Below, in pieces: positions 17,924 through 46,348 of a DNA stretch of 58,994 bases. The position numbers and the translations under genes were made by a program. How positions within the stretch are numbered: position 1 is the stretch's first letter; every line of letters begins with the position of its first letter. The notes beneath the pieces are model-generated. The model was not told the DNA's origin. It did no database searches and saw only the letters and a program-made list of their open reading frames with translations. The stretch comes from a virus. The DNA lies in the IMG/VR virus record IMGVR_UViG_3300045778_000157, positions 1 through 58,994 of that record. One strand, written 5' to 3'.

Positions 17924-18643
17924 TCAGGCTTCAGCCTCGGCCTGGATGGCTTCGACGGCCTTCTCGATCTGTCGCTTGGCAGTGATACGCGCAGCCGGAT
18001 CGTTTGCACCAGCTTCCTTCAAGATGTTCGAAATCCGCTCGTCGGACAGTCCTGCCTTCGCCTCGTCCCGGGTGAACTTGAACTTGTCGAGAGCCGCCAT
18101 GAAGCCCGGGTTGAGGGTCTTGCGCTCGGGCTGCGGCGAGTGTTCGCGGACGCGGGCCGTCAGGTCGCCGATCTTGGTTTCGTAGGCCGAGATCTTGTCG
18201 GCGTGGTCCTTCTCGGCCTTCTCGGCGGCGGCGAGCTTGTCCGACAGTTCCTTGGTGGCGTCCTCGACGGCCTTGGCCGTCAGGGTCTTCACGTCCGCGT
18301 CGGCGGCGCGCAGCGGCCAGTCGTGGTCGCGGTGGATCTGCGGGAAAATGCCCGCCGCGCTCTGCGAACGCATGTCCTTGGCGAGGCCGCGGGCCAGCAC
18401 GGCGTGGCCGCGGGAGGCATGGGTGCCGACCCCGTCGCCTTCCATGGCGTCGGCGGCGGCTTCGAGCGCGATGGCGTGGGGTTCGACCTGCTTGGCGATC
18501 TTGTCGTTGGCTTCAAGCTTTTCGTCGGCCGCGGCCTTGAGGGTGGCGAGTTCGGCCTGAAGCGTCGTGGCCTGCGCCTGGAGGGCGGAGGTGGCGGCGG
18601 CGACCTGTTCGGCCACCAGCTTGGCGAGTTCGTCCTTGTCCAT
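17924..18643 (-). CDS. Predicted scaffold-only product from internal start
   Basis: 239 aa in the same frame as the protease-scaffold gene. ATG at 18643 with an AAGGA-type ribosome binding site. The product would hold only the coiled-coil scaffold, comparable to lambda Nu3 inside gene C. Inferred from the site and domain boundary. Confidence 0.5.
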   Translation of the reverse strand: MDKDELAKLVAEQVAAATSALQAQATTLQAELATLKAAADEKLEANDKIAKQVEPHAIALEAAADAMEGDGVGTHASRGHAVLARGLAKDMRSQSAAGIFPQIHRDHDWPLRAADADVKTLTAKAVEDATKELSDKLAAAEKAEKDHADKISAYETKIGDLTARVREHSPQPERKTLNPGFMAALDKFKFTRDEAKAGLSDERISNILKEAGANDPAARITAKRQIEKAVEAIQAEAEA

Positions 18644-20980: not shown

Positions 20981-22384
20981 TCACTTCACCGTCGAGAGAA
21001 TCAGCTTGCGCGGGCGCATCGTCGAGAGCCTGTGGAAGGATTCGGACGTCGCATCTACGGCGTCATCATGCTTTGCCTCGGGAAAAGCTTCAAGGGCGGC
21101 TATCCATGCCGCGTTCCACGGCCCGCGCAGCACCAGCACGTTGCCGTGTTCCGCCTGGGCGGAGAAGCCCTGGAAGCGCGTCACCTTGTCGCCCTGCCCC
21201 GACATGACGCGGAAGCGCACGTTGAAGCCCGCGAGTTCGCGGGAATATTCCACCACCTGTCCCTTGCCGGCCTGTCCCGGATCCTGCGGGATGGAGATCA
21301 TCACCTCGTGGCCGTCGTATTCGGCGGTGGCCTTCACCTCGGCCATCACCCCTGCGGGCGTGTCGCGACAGGCCACGGCGTCCACCACGACATACTGCCC
21401 GTTGGTGAGACGGCCCATGAGGACGCCCCACGTCCAGTCGGGGTCGTTGTTCTCGGTCTTCGGCGTGGCCGCGAGATCCCATCCGCGACACCACTCCACC
21501 ACGTCGGCGGGGATCACGTCGATGAACTTCACCCAGCTGCGCTTGAACAGGAGTCCGGCGGCGGCGCGGATCTTCCAGTTGCCGTCCAACATGCGGCCCC
21601 TGTTCACCGCGTCCATCGACAGGAGGTTGGCCTTGTATTGCGGGTTGTTCTTCAACAGGGCCGGATTGTCGGACAGCTTCGACGGGATGAACGTCACCGA
21701 GAGGATCATGTCCTTGGTGTATTCGGGGAACCTTTCGATGAGTTCGCGCTTGGTGTCGGCCCACACGATCTGTTCGCCATTCACGCGCACGAAGTAGCGG
21801 ATCCTGCCGCCGCGCTCGGGGATGGCGTAGCCGTCATCGTCGATCCACCACGCGATGAACTCGGCCACCCAGCTGTCCGCGTCGGGGTTGCACGTGGCGC
21901 GCACGTAGGGCTTGACGGGGCAAGCCGCCGTCCTGTTGCGGGCCAGAAGGTAGAAGAACGCGTAGCGGGAAAAGTGAGTCAATTCGTCGAAGCACAGGAG
22001 AACGATCTGTGAGCCCTGCCAGTCGTCCAGGGCGTTGTCGTGCTCGACGTGGCCGAACTGGATCTTGGCTCCGCCCCTGTCGGGGTCGCCCCACTTCCAC
22101 TCCATCTGCGGCGTCTGCACGAAAGCACCGCCGGTCTGCGGGTAGAGCGAGCGCGAGACGTCGACGATGGACCCCGGCTTCCGCGCGTCCTGCAAGGTGC
22201 GGCGGAAGATCACCGCGTTGAAGTAGGGCTTGGAGATCCGCCGGAGGCACTCCAGCAACAGGCCGTAGGACTTCCCGCCCCCGGCGGCACCGCCGTAGAT
22301 GACGATATCGGCGCGGCTCTCCAGGAACAGCGTCTGTTGCCCCGCCTGGGGCGTCAGGGGCTGCACGATTGGAACGGGGGCCAT
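20981..22384 (-). CDS. terL: Terminase large subunit
   Basis: 467 aa. Walker A GGAAGGGKS at residues 31-39, Walker B IVLLCFDE near 130, and a C-terminal nuclease with RGWDLAATPK near 290 and HDDAVDATS near 445. These are the ATPase motor and RNase H-like nuclease of DNA packaging. The start is one base after the stop of a tiny membrane protein gene and next to the small subunit, a standard arrangement. The packaging type (headful or cohesive) cannot be told from the sequence, although the overlap of the ends without a unique boundary favours headful. Confidence 0.93.
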   Translation of the reverse strand: MAPVPIVQPLTPQAGQQTLFLESRADIVIYGGAAGGGKSYGLLLECLRRISKPYFNAVIFRRTLQDARKPGSIVDVSRSLYPQTGGAFVQTPQMEWKWGDPDRGGAKIQFGHVEHDNALDDWQGSQIVLLCFDELTHFSRYAFFYLLARNRTAACPVKPYVRATCNPDADSWVAEFIAWWIDDDGYAIPERGGRIRYFVRVNGEQIVWADTKRELIERFPEYTKDMILSVTFIPSKLSDNPALLKNNPQYKANLLSMDAVNRGRMLDGNWKIRAAAGLLFKRSWVKFIDVIPADVVEWCRGWDLAATPKTENNDPDWTWGVLMGRLTNGQYVVVDAVACRDTPAGVMAEVKATAEYDGHEVMISIPQDPGQAGKGQVVEYSRELAGFNVRFRVMSGQGDKVTRFQGFSAQAEHGNVLVLRGPWNAAWIAALEAFPEAKHDDAVDATSESFHRLSTMRPRKLILSTVK

Positions 22385-22385
22385 G

Positions 22386-22502
22386 TCAGTCCTCCGCGTC
22401 GTCCTCGCGGCGCTGGGGGCGCGTGTGGAAGTCCACCCACAGGCCTATTCCGCACCACGCGAGGGCCAGCAGGATGATGGCGAGTGAAGCGGCCTCTTTC
22501 AT
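22386..22502 (-). CDS. Tiny single-span membrane protein between terminase genes
   Basis: 38 aa. One transmembrane helix (A-S-L-A-I-I-L-L-A-L-A-W-C-G-I-G-L-W-V near residues 5-23) then a charged tail. Coupled to terS by ATGA and one base from terL. Too short for a firm call, but the coupling supports translation. Role unknown. Confidence 0.6.
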   Translation of the reverse strand: MKEAASLAIILLALAWCGIGLWVDFHTRPQRREDDAED

Positions 22503-23005
22503 TCGTCCTCCTCCCCGTTCGATTCGTCGTCGCGCCCGTTCGAGGGCAGGATCACAACCGCCGTCTGGTGCAGGGGCAGCGGCGCGCCGTCCGCGCCCGT
22601 GTGCTCGTTGCGCGTCGTCTCCTTCCAGCCCATGCGGGTCTTGGCGTAGAAGATCGCGGCCTGGACCGTTCCCTTGCCGTTTTTCTTGTCGGAGGCGATG
22701 CGGATGATGTTCGCGCCCACCGCCGTGTCGCACTTGGCCTTGCCGAGCCGGATCTCCTTGGCGAAGTGCTTCTTGAACGTCGGGAGCGACACCCCGATGA
22801 TTTCGGCGACCTCTTCCTGCGAGACGGAGCCGAGCGACACCATGAGTTCCACCTGGCGCCGCTGATCGTCGGACGGCGCGAACGCCCTGCCCCTGCCCAT
22901 GCCCGGAGGGTGCTTGCCCTTCACGGGCGCGACCGCGGGCTTGGGGTAACGCTTGCGCGCCCGCTTCGCCGGGTCTTCCGCCAGGTATTCGTCCTCGTCA
23001 GCCAT
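22499..23005 (-). CDS. terS: Terminase small subunit
   Basis: 168 aa. After a basic N-terminus it has a helix-turn-helix (QVELMVSLGSVSQEEVAEIIGVSLPTFKKHF, about residues 52-80), typical of small terminase DNA-recognition domains, followed by a helical oligomerisation segment with K-T-R-M-G-W. It is first in the late operon and directly upstream of terL. Confidence 0.85.
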   Translation of the reverse strand: MADEDEYLAEDPAKRARKRYPKPAVAPVKGKHPPGMGRGRAFAPSDDQRRQVELMVSLGSVSQEEVAEIIGVSLPTFKKHFAKEIRLGKAKCDTAVGANIIRIASDKKNGKGTVQAAIFYAKTRMGWKETTRNEHTGADGAPLPLHQTAVVILPSNGRDDESNGEEDE

Positions 23006-23062: not shown

Positions 23063-23253
23063 CTTTTCCGCCGATGATGGGGAAGCGGGAGACTGCCGAC
23101 GATGAAGCATCATTCATCAATCGAACCTAACTCGACCACACCACGGTTCTGCCACGGCGCAGAAAACGATGCAAGCCGACCCGGCGCCGCCGCTCGGCGC
23201 GCCTGTTTCTTTCGTCAGAAAGAAACAGAATACTACTGTGACTCTTAAGAGCA

Positions 23254-23350
23254 ATGCGTCCGCATACGCCCATGCGAGTCATATCAAACACTTGCGCGGT
23301 CGTATCGACGCCCTATCGAGGCTCTATCGGCCTCCTATCCACCTTTTATC
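23254..23350. repeat. Composite iteron element, copy A
   Basis: ATGCGTCCGCAT (23254-23265), exactly 30 bp, then five tandem 11-bp units ending in TATC (23296-23350). Units have the form N7-TATC and repeat once per DNA helical turn. The same arrangement recurs at copies B and C. Confidence 0.75.
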
Positions 23351-23398
23351 ACACTTTCGCCACAATCCGACGCGGAAAACAGGCCTCATGCGTCGGCA

Positions 23399-23506
23399 AT
23401 GCGTCCGCATTAAATCCGCAATGCGTCCGCATGAACCATGTGCAGCGATATCAATTATATGGGCGGTTGTATCGGCGTCCTATCGCGATTCTTTCCGCCT
23501 CCTATC
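23399..23506. repeat. Composite iteron element, copy B
   Basis: ATGCGTCCGCAT twice (23399-23410 and 23421-23432), exactly 30 bp after the second, then four tandem 11-bp units (23463-23506) of which three end in TATC and one in TTTC. The 30-bp gap shares ATATCAA at the same offset as copy A. An AT-rich stretch follows at about 23520-23560. Confidence 0.75.
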
Positions 23507-23629
23507 CATTCTTGGGAACCTTGATCGATATTTCTTTTGAACTTGTATCAAATAGGTTGCCAAGACGGCAAGAAAAAGCCGCCCGGACCTTTCGGCGCGG
23601 ACGGCGTGTGAGTCGTTGTGGGAAGAATC

Positions 23630-23869
23630 CTACTTGGCGGACAGGAAGTGCTCCACCGCTGCGGCGGTGAGGTGCGCCACGGCGTCCTTCAGGGAGACGT
23701 CGTCGGTGATGCGGCCAGTCGCCGCCATCTTGGCGAGGCCCTGGGCGATCAGCTTGCCGAACATGTCCACGCCGTCGTCGGAGATCCTCCCCTCGGCGGT
23801 GGAGAAGCGGCGGGGAAGCGGGTTGGCGAATTCGAGGCCGCCGTCGTCGGCGAGGTAGATGTTCTGCAT
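23630..23869 (-). CDS. Small hypothetical protein
   Basis: 79 aa (MQNIYLADDGGLEFANPLPRRF...). The second half is helical and Ala-rich with D-A-V-A-H-L-T-A-A-A-V-E-H. A promoter-like sequence lies 45-75 bp upstream. It stands alone, the last of the leftward accessory genes. Not recognised. Confidence 0.65.
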   Translation of the reverse strand: MQNIYLADDGGLEFANPLPRRFSTAEGRISDDGVDMFGKLIAQGLAKMAATGRITDDVSLKDAVAHLTAAAVEHFLSAK

Positions 23870-24488: not shown

Positions 24489-24653
24489 TCAACGCTCCAG
24501 TGACGCGACGGCGTGGATCAGTTCCTCGTCCACGGCCTCGTGGGCCGCCGTGGCTTCCGTGAATTCGCGGATGCGCCGCTTCATGTCCTCGGTCGCCTGG
24601 CGGACGACATCCGCCTGTTGCGCCTGCTTGCGCGCTTCGAGTTCGTCCGTCAT
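24489..24653 (-). CDS. Small coiled-coil-like protein
   Basis: 54 aa, rich in Glu, Ala and Arg, predicted helical throughout (DELEARKQAQQADVVRQATED). Start coupled by ATGA to the DNA methyltransferase stop. It may assist or regulate the methyltransferase, but that is only inferred from position. Confidence 0.6.
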   Translation of the reverse strand: MTDELEARKQAQQADVVRQATEDMKRRIREFTEATAAHEAVDEELIHAVASLER

Positions 24654-25966
24654 GCCTTGCCCTTTCCAGCCTTGGCCGTCAGTCGCGCGTTCGGATTGCG
24701 CCGCGCCATCACCTCGACGAAGGTCTCGCCCGTCTCTTCCAACGTGGCAACGCCGCCCGAAAAGTTCTGCCAGCGCGTGGCGATGACGTCGACGAACACA
24801 GGGTCCTTCTCCGCAACCCTTGCGCGGCGCCCGTGCTTCTCGCAGGCGACGAGGGTCGAGCCGCTGCCGCCGAACAGGTCGAGGACGACGGCCCCGCGCT
24901 TCGACGAGTGCAATATCGCGTGTTCCGGCACGGCCACGGGCTTCTCGGTCGGGTGGTCCGTCTCGGCCTGCTTCCTGCCGATCGTCCAGGTGGACAGGGC
25001 GTGGCCCTCGGCGGGGGAGTTGAAGGTGTGCCTGCCGCGAGTGGCGTAGCAGATCAGTTCGTTGTCCCACGTCCAGTGCCGCTTCATGAGGCTCGGCATG
25101 GGGTTCTTCTTCTGCCACACGCAAGCCGAGACGTGCGAGGCCCACGTCTCCATCCACGCCCATATGCTCCCGGCGAGGTGGTGCGAGGTGCACACGTAGA
25201 CCGTTGCGTCGTCGGCGAGGTGCAGCGCGAAGGACTGCTCCACGGAGGCGAAAACGAATCCCTTGTCCCACTCGGACGCGGCGAGGTTCTTGTAGGCCTT
25301 CCGCACGTTCTTCGCCACGAGGTCGTCGCCCGAGGCGTGGTTGTATGGCGGGTCGGTGAACACCATGTCGGCCTTGTCGCCCGCCATGAGGATCGCCACC
25401 GCGCCGACGTCGGTCGAGTCGCAACAGGCGAGGCGGTGGTCGCCCAGTATCCACACGTCGCCGTCGCGCGAGATCGCGCTGTCGCCGGCGGCCGGCGTCT
25501 CGTCCTCGTCGGTCTGGCCTTCCTTGGCCTCGTCCTCGTCGGCGCCGAACAGATCCTTGAGGAAGTCGCCGTCGAGGCCGGTCAGTTCGAGGTCGAACTC
25601 CATGCCCTGCAAATCGGCGAGTTCGAGCTTCAAAAACTCGGTGTTCCAGTCCGAGCCGTTGAGCGCGATGGCGTTGTCGGCGATGACGTAGGCCCGCCGC
25701 TGCGCCTCGCTCCAGCCCCGCGCCACCATGGCGGGAACCGTGGCGATCTTCAGCTTCTTCGCCGCGAGGATGCGCCCGTGGCCGGCGATCAGGGTGTTGT
25801 CCTCGTCCACGAGGATCGGCATCGTCCAGCCGTATTCGAGGATTGACTTGGCGATGAGGTCGATTTGCGCCGGCGTGTGGGTCCGCGCGTTTCTTGCGTA
25901 GGGCAGCATGTCCACGACGCTGCGCCGCTCCACCTTGTCGGCGGGCCAAAGAACCTCATTTCCCAT
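24650..25966 (-). CDS. DNA methyltransferase with ParB-like N-terminal domain
   Basis: 438 aa. The N-terminal ~90 residues are ParB/Sulfiredoxin-like (IDLIAKSILEYGWTMPILVDEDNTLIAGHGRILAA). Next come an acidic linker and a beta-class amino-methyltransferase domain with catalytic DPPY near residue 205 and the AdoMet-binding LDLFGGSGST near 360. The DPPY-first order is that of N6-adenine or N4-cytosine enzymes, including CcrM. It probably modifies phage DNA to evade restriction or to mark promoters. The target sequence is unknown. No partner nuclease gene is seen. Confidence 0.85.
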   Translation of the reverse strand: MGNEVLWPADKVERRSVVDMLPYARNARTHTPAQIDLIAKSILEYGWTMPILVDEDNTLIAGHGRILAAKKLKIATVPAMVARGWSEAQRRAYVIADNAIALNGSDWNTEFLKLELADLQGMEFDLELTGLDGDFLKDLFGADEDEAKEGQTDEDETPAAGDSAISRDGDVWILGDHRLACCDSTDVGAVAILMAGDKADMVFTDPPYNHASGDDLVAKNVRKAYKNLAASEWDKGFVFASVEQSFALHLADDATVYVCTSHHLAGSIWAWMETWASHVSACVWQKKNPMPSLMKRHWTWDNELICYATRGRHTFNSPAEGHALSTWTIGRKQAETDHPTEKPVAVPEHAILHSSKRGAVVLDLFGGSGSTLVACEKHGRRARVAEKDPVFVDVIATRWQNFSGGVATLEETGETFVEVMARRNPNARLTAKAGKGKA

Positions 25967-27183: not shown

Positions 27184-28578
27184 TCACTTCACGCGGTTGT
27201 GCAGAGCGGTCGGATAGCACCCCGACAACGCCTTCACGTCCTCCGCGAAGGCGTTGCGTTCCTCGGCGAGGGTCTGCACCTCCTTCACGAGGTCGGCCAA
27301 AGTGGCGCACTTGCCGTTCCGCCACCACTTGCCGTTCCGCCACCCCTTGCCGAACAGCGCGGCCTCAATGTCGCGGCGGAAGGCGTAGTTAACATCCTGC
27401 GCCACGCCGTCCACGATGAACGCCTTGATCTTGGCGATGGCGGCATTACTGACGGTTTCGACGTCGTTCACCGTCTCCATGCCGAGCGCGGCGCGCAGTT
27501 CAACCCACGCCTGATAGAACTTGCCGCCCTTCAACTTCATTGCGTCCCAATTGAAATGGGAGAAATAGCGGCCTGGCGTCAAAGGTTCGCCAGCACTATC
27601 CTCCCACCACTTGTTGAACTTGGCGATATCCTCGGCGGACGCCGCGCCAATCTCAACCGTGATGCTCTGCAACTCGCGCTCGGCCTTCAACCGCTTCATT
27701 ACGGCCACTGACGCGTCGAACACGTTTGCCCCGACCTTCCACTCGTTCGAGTCAGCGAACTCGGTGCAGAGGCATTCCTGAAGCTTCTCGAAGCCCTTCG
27801 AGTAATAGTCCTCGTTCGCCTTGAAGCTTTGCAGTGTGGACAGCGCGTTGACGAGGATGGGCGTCTCGGTGCTGTTCAAGCCCCTGTCGCGCAGCCACTT
27901 CCCGATTGCCGTGGTCTGCATGGAGAGGTTCGGAACCCTCTCATACTCTTCGGCGATCCGCAGCACCTGTCCCACCACGTCGTCCTCGCGCTCGTCCTCG
28001 CGCTGATCCACGTAGGATTGGAGACGCGACGTCACGCCTTCGAGTTTGTTACGGACGCCGGCGAGTTCCTGGAACAGTTCGCGCACCACGCGCACGGCGC
28101 CGGATCCGAGTTCCTCGCCCGCCTTGATCCGGCCGCGCAGTTCGTAGCCGATGGCCGTCAGGTCGTTCGCCGCGCCGTCGAACAGCGAGTGGAAGTGGAT
28201 CTTGAGGCGGTTGGCCTCTGTGAGTTCCGTCCGCAGTTCCACCCTCAGGCTGGTCTCGCTTCTCGCGATGGCGTCGAGGCGGGCATTCTCGGCCTTCAGT
28301 TCGGCAAGGACGCGCAGCGCGTGGTCTCCAATCGCCTCGCCGCGCTTCGGGCCACGGTCCTTGAAGCCCATGGCAAGCGTCCAGGAGAGCCGCTGCAAGG
28401 CCTCGTCGGGGCTTCCCTCAACGCCCTGTTCGACGCAGCGGCCTTCGAGTTCCGTCACCACGTCGCGCACGTGCTTGATAATGTCCAGGCGGTTGAGGTC
28501 CGCGTCGCCGATATGCTCGCACAACGCGCCGCGCAAATTCTCGAAAAACTGACGGTCGATCTTCATGCGATTAGCCAT
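27184..28578 (-). CDS. Large hypothetical helical protein
   Basis: 464 aa, start ATG at 28578 with CAGGAGGG upstream. It is mostly helical with several coiled-coil-like stretches in the first half (around residues 70-210). Near the end it has an odd short tandem repeat (WRNGKWWRNGK), and then L-V-K-E-V-Q-T-L-A-E-E-R-N-A. The base composition is slightly less GC-rich than the neighbours. No family recognised; a structural or DNA-associated role cannot be separated. Confidence 0.7.
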   Translation of the reverse strand: MANRMKIDRQFFENLRGALCEHIGDADLNRLDIIKHVRDVVTELEGRCVEQGVEGSPDEALQRLSWTLAMGFKDRGPKRGEAIGDHALRVLAELKAENARLDAIARSETSLRVELRTELTEANRLKIHFHSLFDGAANDLTAIGYELRGRIKAGEELGSGAVRVVRELFQELAGVRNKLEGVTSRLQSYVDQREDEREDDVVGQVLRIAEEYERVPNLSMQTTAIGKWLRDRGLNSTETPILVNALSTLQSFKANEDYYSKGFEKLQECLCTEFADSNEWKVGANVFDASVAVMKRLKAERELQSITVEIGAASAEDIAKFNKWWEDSAGEPLTPGRYFSHFNWDAMKLKGGKFYQAWVELRAALGMETVNDVETVSNAAIAKIKAFIVDGVAQDVNYAFRRDIEAALFGKGWRNGKWWRNGKCATLADLVKEVQTLAEERNAFAEDVKALSGCYPTALHNRVK

Positions 28579-30734: not shown

Positions 30735-30786
30735 TATACCATCGACGAAGATTCCACGTCGTGATTCTTGCACAAGGGAACCCGCC

Positions 30787-31011
30787 ATGTCCGCCATCCA
30801 CGTCACCTTCGAAACCAAGGTCGGGGAGCGCACCGTGCCCGCCGACTCCGCCCTCGCCCTCGCCATGGCCGTCGCCTCGCGCCACGCCCCCGCCGTCGTC
30901 GAGGTGACGGTCGGCGGCAATCCGCTGTCCGCCCTCGACCTGTCGTTCTTCCTGCTGCTGGCCCAGTCCGGCGCCGCCGCCAAGGCCGCGAAGATCCTCG
31001 CCGCCTACTGA
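30787..31011 (+). CDS. Small hypothetical protein
   Basis: 74 aa, ATG at 30787 with AAGGGAACC upstream. Beta then helix: SAIHVTFETKVGERTVPADSALALAMAVASRH, then VVEVTVGG and a helical C-terminus. It leads the SNF2 operon. No family recognised. Confidence 0.65.
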   Translation: MSAIHVTFETKVGERTVPADSALALAMAVASRHAPAVVEVTVGGNPLSALDLSFFLLLAQSGAAAKAAKILAAY

Positions 31012-31018
31012 CGCCAAC

Positions 31019-31040
31019 GGGGAGGCTCCAAGGCCTCCCC
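31019..31040 (+). other. Hairpin between two early genes
   Basis: GGGGAGGC-N6-GCCTCCCC, perfect 8-bp stem, 25 bp before the helicase start. No U-tract. Possible attenuator or stabiliser. Confidence 0.5.
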
Positions 31041-31064
31041 ACCCGCCCCAAGGGAACAACCGCC

Positions 31065-33311
31065 ATGCCGATCCTTCTCCAGCACGACCCCGCCAAGCCG
31101 GCCTTCTTCGTCAAGTTCCCCGCGCCCTGCCCCGAGAGGGACGTGGTCAAGTCCTGTGGCTTCCGCTTCGACGGGGCCACCGCCTCGTGGGTCGGCCGCG
31201 CCGCCGACGCGGTGAGGCTGATCGCCAGGGGCGGCGTCGAGGTGGCCGAGTCCGCCGCCGATGTGCTGCGCGCCGCCCAGCGGCAAGCCGCCGAGTCCGA
31301 GCGCGCCAAGGCCGCGAACATAGCCGCCTCATTCGCCGCGACGTCCGTCGACGCCATCCCGCTCGGCGCCGGCGCCGTCGCGGCGGGCCACGACTTCCTG
31401 CCCTACCAGAAGGCGGGGATCGCCTACGCCGCCGGAAAGAAGGCGGTGCTAATCGCCGACGAAATGGGCCTTGGCAAGACGCCGCAGAGCGTCGGCATCG
31501 CCAACCTAGACCTGTCCTGCCGGAAAATCCTGATCGTCTGCCCCGCCTCGCTCAAGGGCAACTGGCGGCGCGAGTGGCTGAAGTGGGACGCCAAGGGACT
31601 CTCCGTCGCCATCGCCGAGGGGCAGAAGCCGTGGCCGTGCCTCGCCGACGTGGTGGTGGTCAACTACGATATCGTCGAACGCTTTCGGGCCGAGATCGAC
31701 GCGACACATTGGCACATGCTCGTCATGGACGAGTGCCACATGGTCAAGAACGCCAAGGCCCAGCGCACCCGCGCCGTGTTCCGCCGCCCCGAGAAGCGCG
31801 AGAAGGGCAAGCCGATGGTCCCGGGCCGCGCCGCGATCCAAGCCGACCGCGTCGTGCTGCTGACGGGAACCCCGATCCTCAACCGCCCAATCGAAATGTT
31901 CCCGATGCTGGAGCGCATCGACCCCGAAGGCCTCGGCGCCAACTTCATGGCCTTCGCCAAGCGGTATTGCGACGCCGAAATGGGCCGCTTCGGCTGGGAC
32001 TTCTCCGGCGCGTCGAACCTCGAAGAACTGCAAGAGCGGCTGCGCGGCTCGGTGATGGTGCGGCGCCTGAAGGCGGACGTGCTCACCGAACTTCCGCCCA
32101 AGCGGCGCCAGCTGATGCCGCTCGACCGCGCCGAGTCGAAGAACCTGAAGGCCGCCATCGCAGCGCTGGAGTCCGAGGACGAGGCCCACGCCACGGCCAT
32201 CGCCGAGGCCATGGCGAAGGCCGAACTCGCCAAGGCCTCCGGCGAGGACGCCTACCGCGCCGCCGCCGCCACCCTCGCCGACACGCGCAAGGTGGCGTTC
32301 GAGGACATGGCCCGCGCCCGCTACGTCCTCGCCGTCGCCAAGGCGCCCGTGGTGGCCGAGCGCATCGCCGACCTGCTGGCGGAAGACCCCGCGATGAAGA
32401 TCGTGGTGATGGCCCACCACGGCGACGTGGTCCGCGTCCTGCGCGAGAAGTTGCAGAAGTTCGGCTGCGCCGAGGTGACGGGAAAGACCCCCGTGCCGAA
32501 CCGCCAGGGCGAGTGCGACAGGTTCCAAACAGACAAGTCCTGCCGCGTGTTCCTCGGCACCATCCGCGCCGCCGGCGTCGGCCTCACCCTCACCGCCGCG
32601 CACGTCGTCGCCTTCGTCGAGTTGGACTGGGTGCCGGGCAACGTCTCTCAGGCCGAGGACAGGTGCCACCGCATCGGCCAGCGCGACTCCGTCCTCGTCT
32701 GGCACTTCGTGGTCGACGATTCGCTGGACAGCCGCATGGTGGCGACCCTCGTCGAAAAACAGTCCGTCGCCGACGCGGCGTTGAACAACCTCGACCCGTC
32801 GTCCGTGGCCGTCGCCGGGGAAGCCCCGCTCGATTCGTTCGACGTGGTCTCCGACGTCGCGGTCGCCGCAGAGGAAGCGCGCCTCGCCGCCGCCGCGGAC
32901 CACAGGGAGGGCCTCGCGGCGGACGGACGCGCCCGCATCGTCGCGGAGAGGGCGCGGAACGCCGAGCGCGCCCGCGCCGAGACAGCCCACCGCCGCGTGT
33001 CGCCGCGCGCCGCCACCATGGGCCTGTCGGGCGAACAGCTGGACAGGGAGGGCGAGGCCATGTCGCCGGCGCAGCGCGAGACCGCCATGGACGCGGTGCG
33101 CGCCCTCGCCGCCTCCGACAAGGATTTCGCCAACCTGTTGAACGACACGGGCTTCAGCAAGGCGGACGTGTTCCTCGGCCACAGCATCGCCAGGCTGCAC
33201 CCGTCCGAACTCAACGCGGCGCACCACGCCATCGCCCGCCGCCTCGTCGTCAAATACCGCCGCCAGCTGCCGGCGCACGTCGTCGATCTCGTCGCCGCCG
33301 AGGCCGCGTGA
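31065..33311 (+). CDS. SNF2-family DEAD/DEAH-type helicase
   Basis: 748 aa from the ATG at 31065. Motif I DEMGLGKT near residue 130, motif II MDECH near 222, motif III LLTGTP near 267, and C-terminal motifs G-V-G-L-T-L-T-A and QAEDRCHRIGQ near 528. This is the SNF2 (SMARCAL1/HepA-like) layout with an added C-terminal charged region of ~170 residues. SNF2 ATPases translocate on double-stranded DNA. In phages they appear with replication or DNA-modification genes, as here beside a methyltransferase. Confidence 0.88.
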   Translation: MPILLQHDPAKPAFFVKFPAPCPERDVVKSCGFRFDGATASWVGRAADAVRLIARGGVEVAESAADVLRAAQRQAAESERAKAANIAASFAATSVDAIPLGAGAVAAGHDFLPYQKAGIAYAAGKKAVLIADEMGLGKTPQSVGIANLDLSCRKILIVCPASLKGNWRREWLKWDAKGLSVAIAEGQKPWPCLADVVVVNYDIVERFRAEIDATHWHMLVMDECHMVKNAKAQRTRAVFRRPEKREKGKPMVPGRAAIQADRVVLLTGTPILNRPIEMFPMLERIDPEGLGANFMAFAKRYCDAEMGRFGWDFSGASNLEELQERLRGSVMVRRLKADVLTELPPKRRQLMPLDRAESKNLKAAIAALESEDEAHATAIAEAMAKAELAKASGEDAYRAAAATLADTRKVAFEDMARARYVLAVAKAPVVAERIADLLAEDPAMKIVVMAHHGDVVRVLREKLQKFGCAEVTGKTPVPNRQGECDRFQTDKSCRVFLGTIRAAGVGLTLTAAHVVAFVELDWVPGNVSQAEDRCHRIGQRDSVLVWHFVVDDSLDSRMVATLVEKQSVADAALNNLDPSSVAVAGEAPLDSFDVVSDVAVAAEEARLAAAADHREGLAADGRARIVAERARNAERARAETAHRRVSPRAATMGLSGEQLDREGEAMSPAQRETAMDAVRALAASDKDFANLLNDTGFSKADVFLGHSIARLHPSELNAAHHAIARRLVVKYRRQLPAHVVDLVAAEAA

Positions 33312-33589
33312 TGGCGCGCCACTTCGCCACGGCCACCCTCCACGACGTCGAACACCCGATCTACGTCCGGGACGACGGCTCCCTGATCTGCGATTGGCCG
33401 GACGGCGACCTCACCGACCTGTCCGCCGACGATTCGGACTCGGACGAAAGGATCGCCCGCGCCTTCCTCAACGAGGCGTTCTGCGTCGTCCGTGAAATGG
33501 ACCACTCTCTCGTCTCGCCTTACGGGCTTGAATCCGCCGTCTCCGCCCTGTGGGCCGAGGTCGTCATCACAAGGGTAGAAACACCATGA
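33311..33589 (+). CDS. Small hypothetical protein between SNF2 and Dcm genes
   Basis: 92 aa. It overlaps the helicase stop (TGATG) and the methyltransferase start (ATGA), so the three are coupled. The front has a strand pattern (FATATLHDVEHPIYVRDDGSLICDW); the rest is acidic and helical. Unrecognised. Confidence 0.68.
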   Translation: MARHFATATLHDVEHPIYVRDDGSLICDWPDGDLTDLSADDSDSDERIARAFLNEAFCVVREMDHSLVSPYGLESAVSALWAEVVITRVETP

Positions 33590-35220
33590 ACTACGTCAGC
33601 GTATGCAGCGGGATCGAGGCCTGTTCGGTCGCATGGAAGAGCCTCAAGGGATGGAAGCTGTTCGGGGTGGCCGAGATCGCGCCGTTCCAGGCCAACCTCC
33701 TGAAGGCCAAGTATCCCAAGGCGATGAACTGGGGCGACTTCACGAAAATCCCGGGCCACGAGGCCGAATACGACCTTCTCGTCGGCGGCACCCCGTGCCA
33801 GTCCTACTCCGTGGCGGGCTCCCGCGGCGGCAAGGACGACCCTCGCGGCAACCTCGCCTTCGAGTTCGTCCGCCTCGCCGACCGCATCGACACGGGCCGC
33901 AAGTGGCGGAAGAAGGAGGGCGGAGCCGTGCTGTGGGAGAACGTCCCGGGCGTCCTCACCATGGATGACAACGCCTTCGGCTGCTTCGTCGCCGACCTCG
34001 CCGGCGTGGAGGAGCCCTTCGTCGGGCCGAGGAAGAAGCCGGACGGCAAGGCGCCGTCGTGGACGGACTGCGGCTTCGTCGTCGGCCCGCGCCGCGCCGT
34101 GGTCTGGCGCGTCCTCAACGCCCGCCACTTCGGGGTCGCCCAACGCCGCTCCCGCGTGTTCGTGTTCGCGGCGCCGGCCGCAAACGCCCAGGCCGTCCTC
34201 TCCACCCTCATCGAGGGCGACACCCTGCTTTGCGAGGCGCACGAACCCGCCGCCGGGGCCGAATGGGAGCGGCGCGCCAAGGGCTTCGCCCACGTGTCGC
34301 ACCAGCACGGGTGCCAGATCGTCTGCTACGCCCCGTCGAAGAAGCCGACGCTGCTGCCGCTGATCGTCGGGAGCCAGCCCGCCGACCCAGTCCGCGCCGT
34401 CCTCGCCGACGTCCTGCAAGCCGACGCGCACGCCAAATACGCCCTCTCAGCCGATGGCTGTCAGGGCGTACTCAACCGCTCGGAGCGGCGCGCCAAGTCA
34501 ATGCCTCCGCTGCTGCGCTGGGTGCTTGAGTGCCAGGCCAATGGCGTTCCCGCGCTGTCTGTCGTGCGCGCCGGAGACCCGCGCTTCGACGGCATGGCCT
34601 TCAAGCCGAACCAGTCCTCGTCCGCCCGCAGCGACGGCGTGGAGATCGGCGTCTCCCCGACGCTGGAGACGGCGAGCGGCGGCAACAACGTACCAGCCGT
34701 CCTCGAAGGATTCCGCTTCTTCAAGAGCCGCGACTTCGGAGAATATGCGGATGACGCCATCGCCTCCACGGTCATGGCGCAAGCCTCCACCCTCACCCAC
34801 CGCGCCGCCGTTGAGTCGTCAGACCTCGTCTGCACCGCCGGCGACGTCAGCGGCACCCTGTGCGCGTCCGGTGCCGGACTCGACCGCGCAGCGGGACAGG
34901 GCAACGAGGTGGATTTCATCGTCGGACAGGGCAACGAGGTGGTCTACAGGTGGCGGGTGCGGCGGCTGACGCCGACAGAGGCCGAGCGGCTCCAGGGATT
35001 CAAGGACGGGTGGACCGACGTTCCCTTCCTCGGCAAGCCCGCGTCCGACACGAGGCGTTATTCAGCGATCGGAAATTCCATGGCCGTGCCGGTCATGCGC
35101 TGGATCGGGGAGCGCATCGAGGCGCGCTACGGCGAGCATCGCGCCGTCCGCGAAAAGCCCGCCAAGCCGCCGAGGAAAATAGTGCCGACCCTGTTCGATT
35201 TCCTCGTCGAAGTCGCTTGA
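33586..35220 (+). CDS. DNA cytosine-5 methyltransferase
   Basis: 544 aa. Motif I-like V-C-S-G-I-E-A near residue 8, catalytic G-G-T-P-C-Q-S-Y with Cys71, motif VI ENV at 118-120, QRRSRVF near 190, and a C-terminal R-R-L-T-P-T-E-A-E-R-L-Q-G-F and A-I-G-N-S-M-A-V-P-V. A long variable region (about 230-440) forms the target-recognition part. It methylates cytosine C5, probably for protection from host restriction. ATGA coupling to the previous gene. The target is unknown. Confidence 0.9.
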   Translation: MNYVSVCSGIEACSVAWKSLKGWKLFGVAEIAPFQANLLKAKYPKAMNWGDFTKIPGHEAEYDLLVGGTPCQSYSVAGSRGGKDDPRGNLAFEFVRLADRIDTGRKWRKKEGGAVLWENVPGVLTMDDNAFGCFVADLAGVEEPFVGPRKKPDGKAPSWTDCGFVVGPRRAVVWRVLNARHFGVAQRRSRVFVFAAPAANAQAVLSTLIEGDTLLCEAHEPAAGAEWERRAKGFAHVSHQHGCQIVCYAPSKKPTLLPLIVGSQPADPVRAVLADVLQADAHAKYALSADGCQGVLNRSERRAKSMPPLLRWVLECQANGVPALSVVRAGDPRFDGMAFKPNQSSSARSDGVEIGVSPTLETASGGNNVPAVLEGFRFFKSRDFGEYADDAIASTVMAQASTLTHRAAVESSDLVCTAGDVSGTLCASGAGLDRAAGQGNEVDFIVGQGNEVVYRWRVRRLTPTEAERLQGFKDGWTDVPFLGKPASDTRRYSAIGNSMAVPVMRWIGERIEARYGEHRAVREKPAKPPRKIVPTLFDFLVEVA

Positions 35221-39894: not shown

Positions 39895-40313
39895 TTGGTG
39901 TTCCCTTCAAGCTGCTCCACCTTGGCGTGGAGGATCTCAATATCGGCTTCCCGTGCGGAGATTTCAAGCAACGCCTTGCCGTTGGCGATCCGCGCCCGCC
40001 CGAGAAGGGCGCGCAGTTCGCGAATGTCGCGCCGCAGCGCGGAGTTATCGTTGCGGGCCTTCTCCAGCGCGTCCGCCGCGCCCGCCTCGCGGAACACCGG
40101 GTCGCGGAACCGCTCGTATTTGCCCTCGGCGCGGTCGAACCGCACCCCGAAGGCCTCCATGATGCGGCGCGAGACCCCGATCTGCCCGTTCACGAAGCGC
40201 GAGATCTGCGCCTCCTTCACGTCGGTGATGAGGGCAAGCTGACGCTGCCCGCCGTGCCTCTCCGCCACGTCGGCGACGTGCTTGCGGAACTCGGTCTGCG
40301 ACATGAAGGCCAT
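39891..40313 (-). CDS. XRE-type regulator with C-terminal coiled coil
   Basis: 140 aa from the ATG at 40313 (TGATG overlap with the helicase). N-terminal HTH: G-Q-R-Q-L-A-L-I-T-D-V-K-E-A-Q-I-S-R-F-V-N-G near residues 22-43. A long coiled coil follows (about 85-140). It lies at the end of the replication operon, so it may act as a repressor of leftward or rightward transcription. Confidence 0.7.
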   Translation of the reverse strand: MAFMSQTEFRKHVADVAERHGGQRQLALITDVKEAQISRFVNGQIGVSRRIMEAFGVRFDRAEGKYERFRDPVFREAGAADALEKARNDNSALRRDIRELRALLGRARIANGKALLEISAREADIEILHAKVEQLEGNTK

Positions 40314-42013
40314 CACTTGCCTCCCCTCTGCGGGATCCAGCGACCGTCCGAGGTCTTGGTCCACTTCGGCTTGTCCTTCTTCGCCTTGATCGCGCCGGCG
40401 AACTGCTGCGTCCGCGACACGCTGAACGTGCGGCACTCCGTGTCGAAGTCGAACTCCACCACGCCTGGGACGCCGCAGTTCTCCTGATCGCGGATCTTCT
40501 TCACGAACACCCCCGAAACCTTGTCCACCGTCACGTCGCCGAGGCGCGTGATGATGATGCCGAAGTCCGCCTTGTTCTGAAAAGCCGCCGTGTCCGCCAT
40601 GTCGTAGAGGGTGATATCCTCCGGCGCCTTCTCCGCGCCCGCCTTGGTCGGGTGCCCGACGAGGATCACCATGACGTTCATGCGCCGGCCCCACTTCTTC
40701 AGGGCGAGGATGGCGCGGTTGGCGTATTCCGTCATCGTCTCCTTCGCGCTCTTGCGATGCTCGATCTCGTTCCATGGGTCGACGAGGGCCACCTTGATCC
40801 CGTGCCTGATCACCGCCACGTCGAGGCGCGACAGGAGCCAGTCGAAGTCGGCCTCCTCGTCCGCGTCGTCGGACGGGGCGACGAACACGAAATGGTCGCG
40901 GGTGAAGTCCCACGCCATCTGCTTCATTTCGTCGTTCCACCGCGCCCGCGGCTCTCCGAGAGCCGTCGATCCGATGATGCCCTTGAGGATGTGCATGGAC
41001 ATTTCGCGGCTGAAGACGCCGATCTTCCACCCCTGTTCGAGCGCAAGCTGCGACACGAACTGCGTCGTCCACGCGCTCTTGCCGGCCCCCGCCAGTCCGG
41101 TGACGATGACCAGCGCGCCGAGATACGGCTTGAAGTGCGCGTCCATTTCCTTCCACCCCGACGACACGCATTCGGGCGGTTCCTCGTCCGGCATTTCGTC
41201 GAGCGTGTAGACTCCCGAAATGGGGTAGGGCCTGGCGACCTTCAGCATCGCGTCGATGCCCTCCCACCCGCGCTTCTCGAACACCTCGTTGGCGTCCTTG
41301 GCGAGGCGCATTTCGCCCGTCTTTCCGTCCTTCGCCCACACGTCCTTCGGCCACGCCACGAAGCCGCAGCGCACCCGCCCGAGGCGGCGCACCAGTTCCG
41401 CGCCGAGGCGGCGTCCCGGGGCGTCGTTGTCCGTCATGATGACGATGCGCTTGACGTTGGCGAGGCGGTCCCACGACGCGGACACGAACTTGAACGCCTT
41501 GTCGTTCTCCACGTCGATATCGTCCGCCGTGTCCGGCACGACCACCTCGTTGCCGTTCTCGTCCACCCCGGGCAGGTTCGCGCCGTTCGGCACCGACACG
41601 CACGGCCACCCCAGTTGCTTGAGGGTGAGGCAGTCGATCTCTCCCTCCACGATGGTGAGCGGCTTGGCGCCGGAGAGGACGTCGGGATGTTCGAGGTCCG
41701 CCGAGTTGAAGAACGCCGGCTTGGGCTTGGCGCGCTGGGTGAACTTCTTCCCCTTCTCGCGGTACTTCTCGGCGACGACCGCGCCCCTGTCGATGACGGG
41801 GAACACCAGCACCTTGCCGTTCGCGTCGGGGACGACCTCGAACGTCTCTTTGGGGCCGTTCTCCGTCTCCTTAAAGATGCCAGTTCCCTGCCACCTTCCG
41901 CTGAAGAGACCCGTATCCGCCGCCGTTGCGGCCTCGATCCCCCGCGTTTCCAGCCACGCGAGGTGCATTTCGGAAATCGCCTTGGCGCCCGTCGCCTTTT
42001 TCGTGCTGTTCAT
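40313..42013 (-). CDS. Toprim-helicase (primase-helicase) protein
   Basis: 566 aa from the ATG at 42013 with GAAGGGAA upstream; the in-frame GTG at 42037 is less supported. It has L-E-T-R-G-I near residue 25, Toprim motif V-E-G-E-I-D near 125, D-N-D-A-P-G-R near 195, and a C-terminal RecA-type helicase with G-L-A-G-A-G-K-S near 305. This is T7 gp4/Twinkle-like but lacks the N-terminal zinc finger, which is encoded separately in the next gene. It would unwind and prime at the fork. Confidence 0.85.
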   Translation of the reverse strand: MNSTKKATGAKAISEMHLAWLETRGIEAATAADTGLFSGRWQGTGIFKETENGPKETFEVVPDANGKVLVFPVIDRGAVVAEKYREKGKKFTQRAKPKPAFFNSADLEHPDVLSGAKPLTIVEGEIDCLTLKQLGWPCVSVPNGANLPGVDENGNEVVVPDTADDIDVENDKAFKFVSASWDRLANVKRIVIMTDNDAPGRRLGAELVRRLGRVRCGFVAWPKDVWAKDGKTGEMRLAKDANEVFEKRGWEGIDAMLKVARPYPISGVYTLDEMPDEEPPECVSSGWKEMDAHFKPYLGALVIVTGLAGAGKSAWTTQFVSQLALEQGWKIGVFSREMSMHILKGIIGSTALGEPRARWNDEMKQMAWDFTRDHFVFVAPSDDADEEADFDWLLSRLDVAVIRHGIKVALVDPWNEIEHRKSAKETMTEYANRAILALKKWGRRMNVMVILVGHPTKAGAEKAPEDITLYDMADTAAFQNKADFGIIITRLGDVTVDKVSGVFVKKIRDQENCGVPGVVEFDFDTECRTFSVSRTQQFAGAIKAKKDKPKWTKTSDGRWIPQRGGK

Positions 42014-42230
42014 AGTATTTCCCTTCTTCGTAGCCACAGTGGTGGCAATGGCAGACCACGCCTTCGCGGTCGATCTTCACCGCCAGAACCTTGGTGTTCT
42101 GGTTGTGTTTCTTGCGCGAGGCGGAACACGTCGGGCAGGTCGTCCGGTATTCCCCCTCGCTCGTCGACCGCATCTGCCGCGTGTCGATGCCGAGTTCGTT
42201 CAACAGTTCGGAGGCCGAGCGGATTCGCAT
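41871..42230 (-). CDS. Primase zinc-binding protein, separate gene
   Basis: 119 aa. The first ~75 residues contain C-P-T-C (Cys33, Cys36 region) and C-H-C-H-H-C-G, the zinc-binding pattern of bacterial and phage primases. After about residue 78 the peptide overlaps the helicase gene in another frame for 143 bp and has no recognisable fold. In most phages this domain is fused to the Toprim-helicase. Here the two frames are offset. Confidence 0.75.
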   Translation of the reverse strand: MRIRSASELLNELGIDTRQMRSTSEGEYRTTCPTCSASRKKHNQNTKVLAVKIDREGVVCHCHHCGYEEGKYYEQHEKGDGRQGDFRNAPRVAGNAGDRGRNGGGYGSLQRKVAGNWHL

Positions 42231-42240
42231 GGCGGTCCTC

Positions 42241-43149
42241 CTAGCGTCCGGCCGTGGGGAGGCTCGTCTTGCCCGCCCATGAGGACTGAGCGGGCCGCGT
42301 CCCGCCGCTCTTCGAGCCGTTCTGCCCCGTGGCGAGGACGGCCTCGCGCTGCTTCTTCACCACGCCCATGCACCACCCGAGCGGGTCGGCCTTGCCCTGC
42401 CTGTGGGCGTCCGCCACGATGCCGAGCAAGGCGCCCGCGTGGCTGTCTCCGCCCAGCAGCTTGAGCATCTGCCCGATGGACGAGCGCACGTTGGCGTCCG
42501 ACTTCCTACCGTCCTCCGAGAGGTAGGCGCGGCACTTGTCGCCGAACAGACGCTCCTTCGGGTCGATGCCCATCAGCCCGTCCGCCTCGGGGGAAGCCTT
42601 CGGCTGTTCCTGCGCCGAAGGGACGGCCTGGGCCTTCGCCTCCAACGCGTGAACGGGCGAAGCCGAGCCCGCCTCGTCCGCTTGCGGCGGGGCCGTATCT
42701 TTAGATACGGAATAAGGTGACTCTGACTCTGACTCTGAAACGGGCGCGCGATGCATTGCGTCCGCATCGGCGGTATCGTTGTTTTTCAACGACTTACCCC
42801 AGCGTTTCGCCGCGTTATCAGCCGCCTTTACGGCCTTTATCGAGGCCTTATCGGCCTCCTTTCCCTGTCTTTCATTGACGAAACCCGCCTCGGTGAGGAC
42901 GAAGAAGCGGGGCAGGATCTTGTCCAGCAGGGTGTGGGCCTTCCTGTGGTGGAAGTCGGCGATCTTGCTCTGCAACAGGCGGGTGAGGACGGTGCGGTCG
43001 GCGGGCAGGACGCAGCCGACGAGGTGCCAGGCGCACATGAGAAGCACCATGTAGACGCCGTGTTCCTCCGCCGTCAGGTCGAACGTGTCGGCCAGATAGT
43101 CGGTCGGATAGAGCGGCATCCACGCCATTTTCGTGGATTTGTTCGACAT
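42241..43149 (-). CDS. DUF1376-like replication initiator
   Basis: 302 aa. The N-terminus M-A-W-M-P-L-Y-P-T-D-Y-L-A-D-T with H-G-V-Y-M-V-L-L is the typical DUF1376 signature, thought to be winged-helix initiators. The middle is Ser/Ala/Pro-rich and includes S-E-S-E-S-E-S encoded by a short tandem repeat. The C-terminal ~80 residues have I-G-Q-M-L-K-L-L. The gene contains composite iteron copy C, like an origin inside an initiator gene. Transcribed from a TTGACA promoter just upstream. Confidence 0.72.
   Translation of the reverse strand: MSNKSTKMAWMPLYPTDYLADTFDLTAEEHGVYMVLLMCAWHLVGCVLPADRTVLTRLLQSKIADFHHRKAHTLLDKILPRFFVLTEAGFVNERQGKEADKASIKAVKAADNAAKRWGKSLKNNDTADADAMHRAPVSESESESPYSVSKDTAPPQADEAGSASPVHALEAKAQAVPSAQEQPKASPEADGLMGIDPKERLFGDKCRAYLSEDGRKSDANVRSSIGQMLKLLGGDSHAGALLGIVADAHRQGKADPLGWCMGVVKKQREAVLATGQNGSKSGGTRPAQSSWAGKTSLPTAGR
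42693..42710. repeat. Inverted repeat in the initiator gene
   Basis: CCGTATCT-TT-AGATACGG, perfect 8-bp arms. It lies about 50 bp from the palindrome of iteron copy C. Possible binding site for an initiator. Confidence 0.5.
42757..42863. repeat. Composite iteron element, copy C, inside initiator gene
   Basis: TGCGTCCGCAT (42757-42767), a 30-bp gap holding a T-rich hairpin TCGTTG-TTTTT-CAACGA (42776-42792), then six tandem 11-bp units (42798-42863) ending in TATC, TTTC or TTTA. The palindrome-to-array spacing equals that of copies A and B. It overlaps coding sequence in the K-E-A-D-K-A-S-I-K-A region. Confidence 0.75.
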
Positions 43150-43230: not shown

Positions 43231-43684
43231 GACCATTTTTCGGTTTCGAAGAATCTTGATATCCGTTCTTGTGCTCCCGCCGCAGATCGTCGAGGTGCAA
43301 CATGCTGGCGACCTGTCCCGACCCCCGCGTCAGTTCCGTGGCCGTCTCGTCCGCGTCCATCCGCTCGTCCACGTAGAAGTCCACGTCGCGGATCCCCGAC
43401 GTCGAGTAGCCCTTGAGGCGCGAGTAGTGGATCCGCACCCCGAACGGCGCCACCGCCTCCCTCGCGTAGTCCGAGAACTTCGGGAGTTCCTTCTGGCGGA
43501 TGCCCAGGGCCTTCACCATCGCGAGGCTCGGCACGTCGAGCGGCCAGTGCTCCGCGAACACGGCAAGCATCCGCCATCCGCACGTCGCGAGGCGGACGAA
43601 CGCCCCGTCGATCCTGCAATCGCGGCGGTGTTCGTCCTCGAACAGTTCGATCACGGCCCCTGGGCGGCTGCTGTCGATGCTCAC
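43226..43684 (-). CDS. Hypothetical protein
   Basis: 152 aa from a GTG at 43684 (GTGA coupling). It has D-E-H-R-R-D-C-R-I-D-G-A-F-V-R-L near residue 17 and I-H-Y-S-R-L-K-G-Y-S-T-S near 85. It looks like a small mixed alpha/beta domain. Position between the GcrA-like and initiator genes suggests a regulatory or replication role. Not recognised. Confidence 0.62.
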   Translation of the reverse strand: MSIDSSRPGAVIELFEDEHRRDCRIDGAFVRLATCGWRMLAVFAEHWPLDVPSLAMVKALGIRQKELPKFSDYAREAVAPFGVRIHYSRLKGYSTSGIRDVDFYVDERMDADETATELTRGSGQVASMLHLDDLRREHKNGYQDSSKPKNGR

Positions 43685-44049
43685 TTGGCCTTTCCCGTGT
43701 AGGCGATGCGGTGGTGGCTGTCGCAGTAATGCCTACCCCTGCCCGTCGTCCCGCCGCAATAGCCGAAGTCCTCCGCCCCGACGTCGCCGAGCGGCCACAT
43801 GCACGTCATGCCGAACACGGTGGATTCGATGGCGAGGGTGCCGTCGCGGGCCTCGAACAGTTCGAGGACGCGCCTGGGGAGGTTCGTCTCGACCCTGCGC
43901 GTCTTCGAGCCGTAGCGTTCGGCGAGGATGCCCGCCGCGTGGAGGGACGACACCCGACCGATCACGGCGGAGCGCGACAGGCCGACCTTCTCCGAAATGG
44001 CGGTGGCCGAAGCCCCGTCCTCGAACAGGTGGATTATTTCCTCTTCCAC
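43681..44049 (-). CDS. GcrA-like cell-cycle regulator
   Basis: 122 aa from a GTG at 44049. The N-terminal HTH (G-A-S-A-T-A-I-S-E-K-V-G-L-S-R-S-A-V-I-G-R-V) matches the GcrA pattern. The C-terminal C-M-W-P-L-G-D near 82 and F-G-Y-C-G-G ... H-Y-C-D-S-H-H-R-I-A-Y near 93-117 match its conserved metal-like and sigma70-contact tail. In Caulobacter GcrA binds RNA polymerase sigma70 and acts at promoters with methylated GANTC. A phage copy could redirect host polymerase. The N-terminal tryptophan region is shortened. Confidence 0.75.
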   Translation of the reverse strand: MEEEIIHLFEDGASATAISEKVGLSRSAVIGRVSSLHAAGILAERYGSKTRRVETNLPRRVLELFEARDGTLAIESTVFGMTCMWPLGDVGAEDFGYCGGTTGRGRHYCDSHHRIAYTGKAK

Positions 44050-46093: not shown

Positions 46094-46348
46094 ATGAAGA
46101 GCGATCTCGTCGATCTGGAACTGGCGGTCCACCACGAAACCGAAAAGGCCGTCCACCACGAAACCGAAAAGGCCGTCCTCGTCTCGGAGACGGGCGACAG
46201 GGCCAAGGCCGTGTGGCTCCCGCTTCAGGCGTGTGAGGTGGAATACAAGCCGATCACCGGCTGCATGGTCGGAGGGCGCAAGCGTCCGTTCCGCCTTGCC
46301 ACGGTGACCATGCGCGAGTCCCTCGCCGTGGAAAAGGGACTCGCATAA
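46094..46348 (+). CDS. Small protein with duplicated octapeptide
   Basis: 84 aa from the ATG at 46094 with GGAGGGG upstream (an ATG at 46082 overlapping the ATPase stop is possible). It contains V-H-H-E-T-E-K-A twice in a row, encoded by a perfect 24-bp tandem repeat (46127-46150 and 46151-46174). The second half is strand-rich. Function unknown. Confidence 0.65.
   Translation: MKSDLVDLELAVHHETEKAVHHETEKAVLVSETGDRAKAVWLPLQACEVEYKPITGCMVGGRKRPFRLATVTMRESLAVEKGLA

Follow-up and report, generated by a model that had tools for sequence, protein, structure and literature searches.

In phage SPP1, the origin oriL is contained in gene 38 and the origin oriR in non-coding DNA, 12-13 kb apart, and both are bound by gp38 (PMC6316719, PMC3485210). 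Replication begins at oriL; the gp38 bound at oriR is proposed to arrest the fork and to trigger concatemer synthesis (PMC6316719, PMC3485210). In phage lambda, the iterons (about 20 bp) and the unstable tract of ori-lambda are contained in the initiator gene O, followed by the helicase-loading function (PMC7466680). The DNA analysed here (the window) was one whole IMG/VR virus record of 58,994 bases with 66% GC. As in SPP1, one array was found to be present in the gene of a predicted initiator, a DUF1376 protein, and one in non-coding DNA of the late-gene half, 19 kb apart here; direct repeats, low-stability DNA and helicase genes beside the initiator gene were present as at oriL and oriR. 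In contrast to SPP1, the non-coding site of the window was itself doubled and was found to contain an IHF-like site and a second phased array. The likeness to SPP1 is one of arrangement, and the binding of the boxes in the window is predicted. As in lambda, iterons and an unstable tract were contained in the putative initiator gene, followed by a gene of helicase type, whereas the boxes of the window were 5-2-5 inverted repeats at 11-bp pitch and extra non-coding copies were present.

From these comparisons and those given below, we consider it probable that the boxes ATGCGNNCGCAT are the binding sites of the DUF1376 initiator, that the primary origin is the copy in its own gene, and that the two intergenic copies form a second, non-coding origin of the oriR kind. 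The best reading of the DUF1376 proteins would be as initiators like lambda O and SPP1 gp38, with the origin contained within their own gene.

The composite element was found in three copies, namely A (23254-23350), B (23388-23506) and C (42756-42863). The copies A and B were located in a 624-bp gap between a minus-strand small gene (23630-23869) and terS, and copy C was located inside the DUF1376 gene, about 19 kb from A and B (Table 1). When aligned on the box, all three copies were found to contain ATGCG-NN-CGCAT followed by 16 bp, a (W)TWTCAA IHF-like site and the 11-bp TWTC units, which started exactly 30 bp past the box in each copy. An earlier note on this DNA had called the box a palindrome; it was found to be an inverted repeat, but an interrupted one (5-2-5). 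The copy A was as described there, with the box, 30 bp and five 11-bp units all ending in TATC. The copy B was found to contain the two boxes (23399-23410 and 23421-23432), the 30 bp and the four units ascribed to it, but its third unit ended in TTTC instead of TATC. Degenerate units were also present in copy B, at 23388 (ATGCGTCGGCA) and 23410 (TTAAATCCGCA), so the boxes themselves were also repeated at 11-bp pitch. The third copy claimed inside the initiator gene was likewise present, with TTGCGTCCGCAT followed by 30 bp and six units, five of which ended in TWTC in phase. The (W)TWTCAA sequence, absent from the earlier note, was present 16 bp after the box in A, B and C and fits an IHF site, with 0, 1 and 1 mismatches from the IHF consensus at the same offset; only 11 such sites (1 exact) were present in the window. 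A weak terminator-like hairpin was present on either side of the gap. A lone TGCGAACGCA box, without an array, was found at 18363 and is probably due to chance (about 3 expected).

Table 1. Positions of the three element copies and of the features associated with them in the window.
Feature	Position	Strand	Remark
TerL gene	20981-22384		
Small terminase subunit gene (terS), downstream neighbour of the intergenic copies	22499-23005	-	phrog_309, E=1e-10
Low-stability stretch beside box A, candidate unwinding element	23203-23252		third least stable window, starts at 23206
Box A, ATGCGTCCGCAT (5-2-5 inverted repeat)	23254-23265	+	box class also in DUF1376 genes of other phages
IHF-like site A, TATCAAACACTTG	23282-23294	+	sole exact WATCAANNNNTTR in the window; offset as in B and C
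Array A, five 11-bp units ending in TATC	23296-23350	+	
Boxes B, four 11-bp units ATGCGTCGGCA ATGCGTCCGCA TTAAATCCGCA ATGCGTCCGCAT	23388-23432	+	near-identical 27-mer in DUF1376 genes of Flavobacterium-type phages
IHF-like site B, TATCAATTATATG (1 mismatch)	23449-23461	+	
Array B, four 11-bp units ending in TATC/TATC/TTTC/TATC	23463-23506	+	
AT-rich stretch abutting array B, candidate unwinding element	23508-23557		least stable in the record; about 35% GC against 66% GC of the genome
Primase/DnaB-type helicase gene, directly downstream of the DUF1376 gene	40313-42037	-	
DUF1376 gene, predicted initiator	42241-43149	-	PF07120; PHROG 'primosomal protein'; AlphaFold2 model
Low-stability stretch beside box C, with AGAGTC x3.5 repeats	42695-42744		sixth least stable window
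Box C in the DUF1376 gene, gene strand ATGCGGACGCAA	42756-42767	-	
IHF-like site C, TTTCAACGACTTA (1 mismatch)	42784-42796	+	
Array C, six 11-bp units, five ending in TWTC	42798-42863	+	phase to box as in A and B

The claim that the element stands apart from shuffled sequence held in the tests on the gap, on the whole window and on synonymous codons, in which the composite was never reproduced. In 2000 dinucleotide shuffles of the gap, at most 3 phased TATC units were obtained and never five, and a box with at least 2 of 5 phased TWTC units at the 30-bp distance was obtained in 0 of 150 whole-window shuffles, against three observed places with at least 4 of 5. The array count of copy C was reached in 0 of 20,000 synonymous codon shuffles of the gene and its box was retained in 31 of 20,000, which disfavours copy C as a mere by-product of the protein sequence.

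The identity between the copies is confined to the element, that is, the box, the IHF-like site and TWTC. In the A-C and B-C pairs, 27 of 32 TWTC positions were found to be identical against 19 of 56 spacer positions (p=4e-6), the upstream flanks were identical at only 18-25 of 80 positions, and no indel was found across the element among A, B and C. On the minus strand, copy A was found to read EADRASI where the DUF1376 gene reads EADKASI, and both A and C contained TATCGAGGCnnTATCGGCCTCC; the initiator gene itself is the probable source of A and B. These shared residues, together with the minus-strand frames, which were broken by stops, are consistent with A and B being non-functional remnants of a DUF1376 gene duplicated into the gap, decaying and alike only through recent copying. 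Such remnants are rather unlikely, since the spacers and flanks have diverged to background, yet the box, the IHF-like site and TWTC were kept without an indel, since more intact boxes were present in B than in C, and since unrelated phages also retain intergenic copies. The descent of A and B from the gene is likely, but a loss of function is not indicated.

The first, third and sixth least stable 50-bp windows of the record were found to abut array B, box A and box C, respectively. A perfect 11-bp hairpin (23203-23213/23218-23228) was present beside box A and a perfect hairpin with 8-bp arms (42693-42710) beside box C; these hairpins, on the box side of A and C, were found to differ in sequence. 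The GC-skew expectation at 23 kb failed, as the cumulative skew was found to be at its maximum and not at its minimum near 22 kb.

The E. coli oriC contains the R1 box followed by an IHF site and phased low-affinity DnaA sites in the same direction, about one turn apart. The order in copy B was similar, with a strong box followed by a putative IHF bend, sites about one turn apart and candidate unwinding DNA, whereas the initiator is a different one and the TWTC units did not match DnaA boxes. It is distinctly unlikely that the TWTC array consists of phased weak sites for host DnaA, which would make the element a hybrid of initiator box, IHF site and DnaA sites, resembling the left half of oriC. 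The 11-bp pitch and the IHF site between strong box and array recall oriC, one place was found to be 1 mismatch from a DnaA box, and a Rhizobium phage was found to contain a DnaA-like gene beside its DUF1376 gene, but only TWTC was constant and the CACA half of the DnaA box was not conserved over the 16 units. No convincing DnaA or CtrA sites were found in the gap.

The protein of the window was found to be a member of PF07120 (47.3 bits against a gathering score of 30.1, E=2.8e-12). DUF1376 (PF07120), a common phage family, and Lin1244_N (PF14297) are both listed as of unknown function. The AlphaFold2 model, of moderate quality (pLDDT 69, pTM 0.46), was found to contain a confident winged helix (about 13-125) followed by a disordered linker (about 126-196) and a C-terminal helical part, and box C and its short repeats were found to encode the disordered stretch 126-196. 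The VIA-align comparison of the model gave generic winged helices, including DnaD-N and initiator/ORC entries, all with Z under 7 and too weak to place the fold. No solved structure was matched by sequence to the DUF1376 protein, no Foldseek match of its model was found at E<=0.001, and no lambda O domain was found in the window protein, for which Pfam at E<=0.001 reported only PF07120. In other genomes, the DUF1376 genes were found to adjoin DnaB, DnaC-like or IstB-like (helicase or helicase-loader) genes. In the literature, DUF1376 was found only as single mentions in other contexts, none tying DUF1376 or Lin1244 to an origin or box; most subscription journals were outside this search and an earlier description is possible. 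Two genes from the initiator gene, at 43681-44049 (minus strand), the C-terminal end of the encoded protein was found to match GcrA, an alphaproteobacterial cell-cycle regulator.

The entry point to other phages was a blastn search of the gap against GenBank phages, which gave one weak match (E=0.02) in Flavobacterium phage morran9-1. The match was located in the phage's own DUF1376 gene, which was found to contain ATGCGACCGCATTAAATCCGCAATGCG in the linker part, with a near copy at an earlier position. The exact 27-base pattern was found in four further IMG/VR contigs, each time inside a DUF1376-type gene; the Flavobacterium-type phages with this 27-mer contained about 31% GC against 66% in the window. 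A blind scan of all IMG/VR for ATGCGNNCGCAATGCGNNCGCA, that is, two boxes of class 1 (ATGCGNNCGCAT) at 11-bp pitch, gave at least 120 loci, and 111 of the 120 matches listed were found by profile search in all frames to lie in a DUF1376/Lin1244-type winged-helix gene. Pfam searches of the overlapping ORFs in the first 80 of the at least 120 loci gave DUF1376 for 41 and Lin1244_N for 20. The reversed pattern was found at 8 loci in all IMG/VR, 0 of them in a DUF1376/Lin1244-type gene, and at none in 40 whole records. The 120-locus samples of both box classes include near-identical phages, so the counts are not independent events.

Among the loci listed, 307 boxes were present inside initiator genes (3.6 per kb, a density inflated by the locus selection) against 13 outside (0.014 per kb, a density not so inflated). 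The spacing from box to box was 11 bp in 143 pairs, 22 bp in 25 and 33 bp in 15. The boxes were distributed over all three reading frames (149/116/42) and encoded NANAM, MRTHS or CERN. After synonymous shuffling of the initiator genes, a mean of 36 of the 307 boxes was left, so the DNA and not the peptide is conserved. A 39-base box array was found to match 4 records among the GenBank phages, 4/4 in DUF1376/primosomal genes (Acinetobacter and Vibrio phages); exact boxes were present in the DUF1376 gene of Paracoccus and Sulfitobacter phages, and a Bradyrhizobium phage was found to contain an 11-base box. The box was located in the same gene segment in the DUF1376 and Lin1244_N families. The box array had no match in E. 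coli genomes, and Rac YdaU ('primosomal protein I') and several other family members did not contain an exact class-1 box. Close relatives were found neither in IMG/VR by patterns of the DUF1376 protein nor, as near-identical phages, in GenBank. An extra single box was found about 170-213 bp upstream, in the part encoding the winged helix (peptide IRMRTHxE), in many phages, for example at L194:2294 and 2502 and at L195:2328 and 2512.

The DUF1376 genes without the class-1 box were found to contain other repeats at 11-bp pitch. Examples are CAACGACCGTTG, present in phages of Pseudomonas and Moraxella, and ATAGCAATGCT, present in EF62phi and in a Lactobacillus phage. A second blind scan of IMG/VR, for AACGNNCGTTNAACGNNCGTT with the box class AACGNNCGTT (class 2, CAACGNNCGTTG), gave at least 120 loci, and 108 of the 120 matches listed were located in a gene matched by a profile from class-1 proteins, an HMM built without class-2 proteins. 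The earlier proposal of an origin or initiator site tied to the DUF1376 protein gains from the location of the box in DUF1376-type genes in about 90% of the blind matches listed, from the helicase or loader neighbours and from the adjacent low-stability DNA.

The 70 bp after the last box were found to be low in T, with a period of 5, 6 or 7 bp as the best, in 97 of 107 genes, and the least stable 50-mer of the gene was located at most 100 bp after the box in 64 of 107 genes against 15 expected. In copy C, the short repeats were AGAGTC x3.5 (42718-42738), and the copies A and B did not contain the clear short-repeat array seen in C and its relatives. The other repeats at 11-bp pitch and the class-2 boxes suggest a plan common to the family, in which the winged-helix domain is followed by a linker with 5-2-5 boxes in its DNA, spaced by one helical turn. 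The non-coding arrays L184, L185 and L205 of other phages were found to keep both modules, the boxes and the short repeats, which coding constraint cannot account for. Class-2 boxes (AACGNNCGTT) were also observed in apparently non-coding DNA at L205:9130-9180 and in L302 near 6946, with 5-6 bp repeats (e.g. GTAAAG) before or after them.

We lean towards regarding the DUF1376 and Lin1244-type proteins as one very large phage initiator family, with the origin located where the gene encodes the linker. The origin would consist of 5-2-5 boxes, specific to the clade and spaced at 11-bp pitch, and of 5-7 bp repeats after them. In some phages the origin would have been copied to a place outside the gene, this phage would have added a second, IHF-bent array, and the binding code would be readable from each gene. 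If the box is the DUF1376 target, the DNA site of each family member can be read from its gene. Such a family would offer ready initiator/origin pairs across proteobacterial, Bacteroidota and other phages, would explain the odd repeated peptide ANAMRTHSEGNA in the linkers and would make phage origins findable by sequence.

Two related IMG/VR phages, G018 and G030 (L183-L186), were found to contain an in-gene cluster and an apparent intergenic cluster, 9.4 and 10.1 kb apart. Both clusters contained boxes and short repeats, the intergenic copy being boxes followed by (ACAAGATAAG)n. Intergenic copies of this kind may show how a gene-trapped origin can be copied out. They would add to the SPP1-like cases, with the concatemer switch possibly driven by an origin copy at a distance. 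A composite of the kind proposed earlier as a pattern to be sought in related phages, here taken as box, 30 bp and three TWTC units, was not found in IMG/VR, and the same composite gave one match in 84,980 genomes, in a cyanophycinase-like gene and at about chance expectation. The IHF/TWTC half was matched in no other sequence searched, so the evidence for its conservation comes from three copies of a single genome.

Among the TerL-related loci, none was found to contain the box or the array near terS; a box at a distance of over 5 kb was present in two, located in a DUF1376 gene in one case. Absence from close relatives at these places, which the earlier note had held to count against the element, was thus found in part, beside terS; these relatives share only about 55% TerL identity, however, and the element goes with DUF1376 and not with terS. 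These loci also bear on A and B as an initiator-bound control region of the late operon (terS-terL onward), in which the DUF1376 protein represses or times late transcription. Initiators often regulate transcription, and, along the direction of transcription, the gap immediately precedes terS. Control of this kind is nevertheless unlikely, given the TerL relatives without the element, the unstable DNA on both outer sides, which suits an origin better, and the gap itself, in which no sigma-70-like promoter was found (phage or alternative promoters may exist).

The cos site of lambda contains IHF sites in cosB, and the position just upstream of terS would also suit a cos/pac site, at which the small terminase together with IHF would recognise the DNA for packaging; this is very improbable, as a full copy was present in the DUF1376 gene 19 kb away and as the box was found to accompany DUF1376 genes in other phages and to be absent near terS in the TerL-related loci. 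The partition site also considered in the earlier note found no support, no partition operon being seen. ParR-type centromeres contain phased 11-bp direct repeats, and a ParB-N-like domain fused to an N6/N4 DNA methyltransferase was found to be encoded close to the intergenic copies, at 24650-25966 (minus strand). A partition centromere of a plasmid-like prophage is extremely improbable at A and B, since the ParB_N match was below its cutoff and part of the methyltransferase fusion, since the genes tested (part of the gene set) revealed none of ParA type, and since an integrase-like gene was present in the record.

In the preferred reading of an in-gene origin with a second origin copied out of it, the boxes would be iterons at one helical turn, bound by the DUF1376 winged-helix initiator. 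The primary origin would be copy C, in the part of the initiator gene coding for the disordered linker, as in lambda O and SPP1 gp38, and the copies A and B, located before terS in a gap of 0.6 kb, would be an origin of the oriR kind, copied from the in-gene origin and kept by selection. The initiator would fill the boxes and IHF would bend the DNA 16 bp away, and the bend may draw the phased TWTC array into one wrapped complex with the boxes. The array may be occupied by further initiator molecules, by the C-terminal part of the initiator or by some other factor. The adjacent low-stability DNA would then open, followed by the loading of the primase/helicase encoded beside the initiator. The complex at A and B may fire late or may arrest forks from C, aiding the concatemer switch, as proposed for SPP1 oriR.

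Elsewhere in the window, a gene of an SNF2-type helicase was found to adjoin a C-5 cytosine methyltransferase gene (30768-35220, plus strand), and near-perfect tandem repeats of 18 bp and 24 bp were present at 27308-27352 and 46123-46178, respectively.
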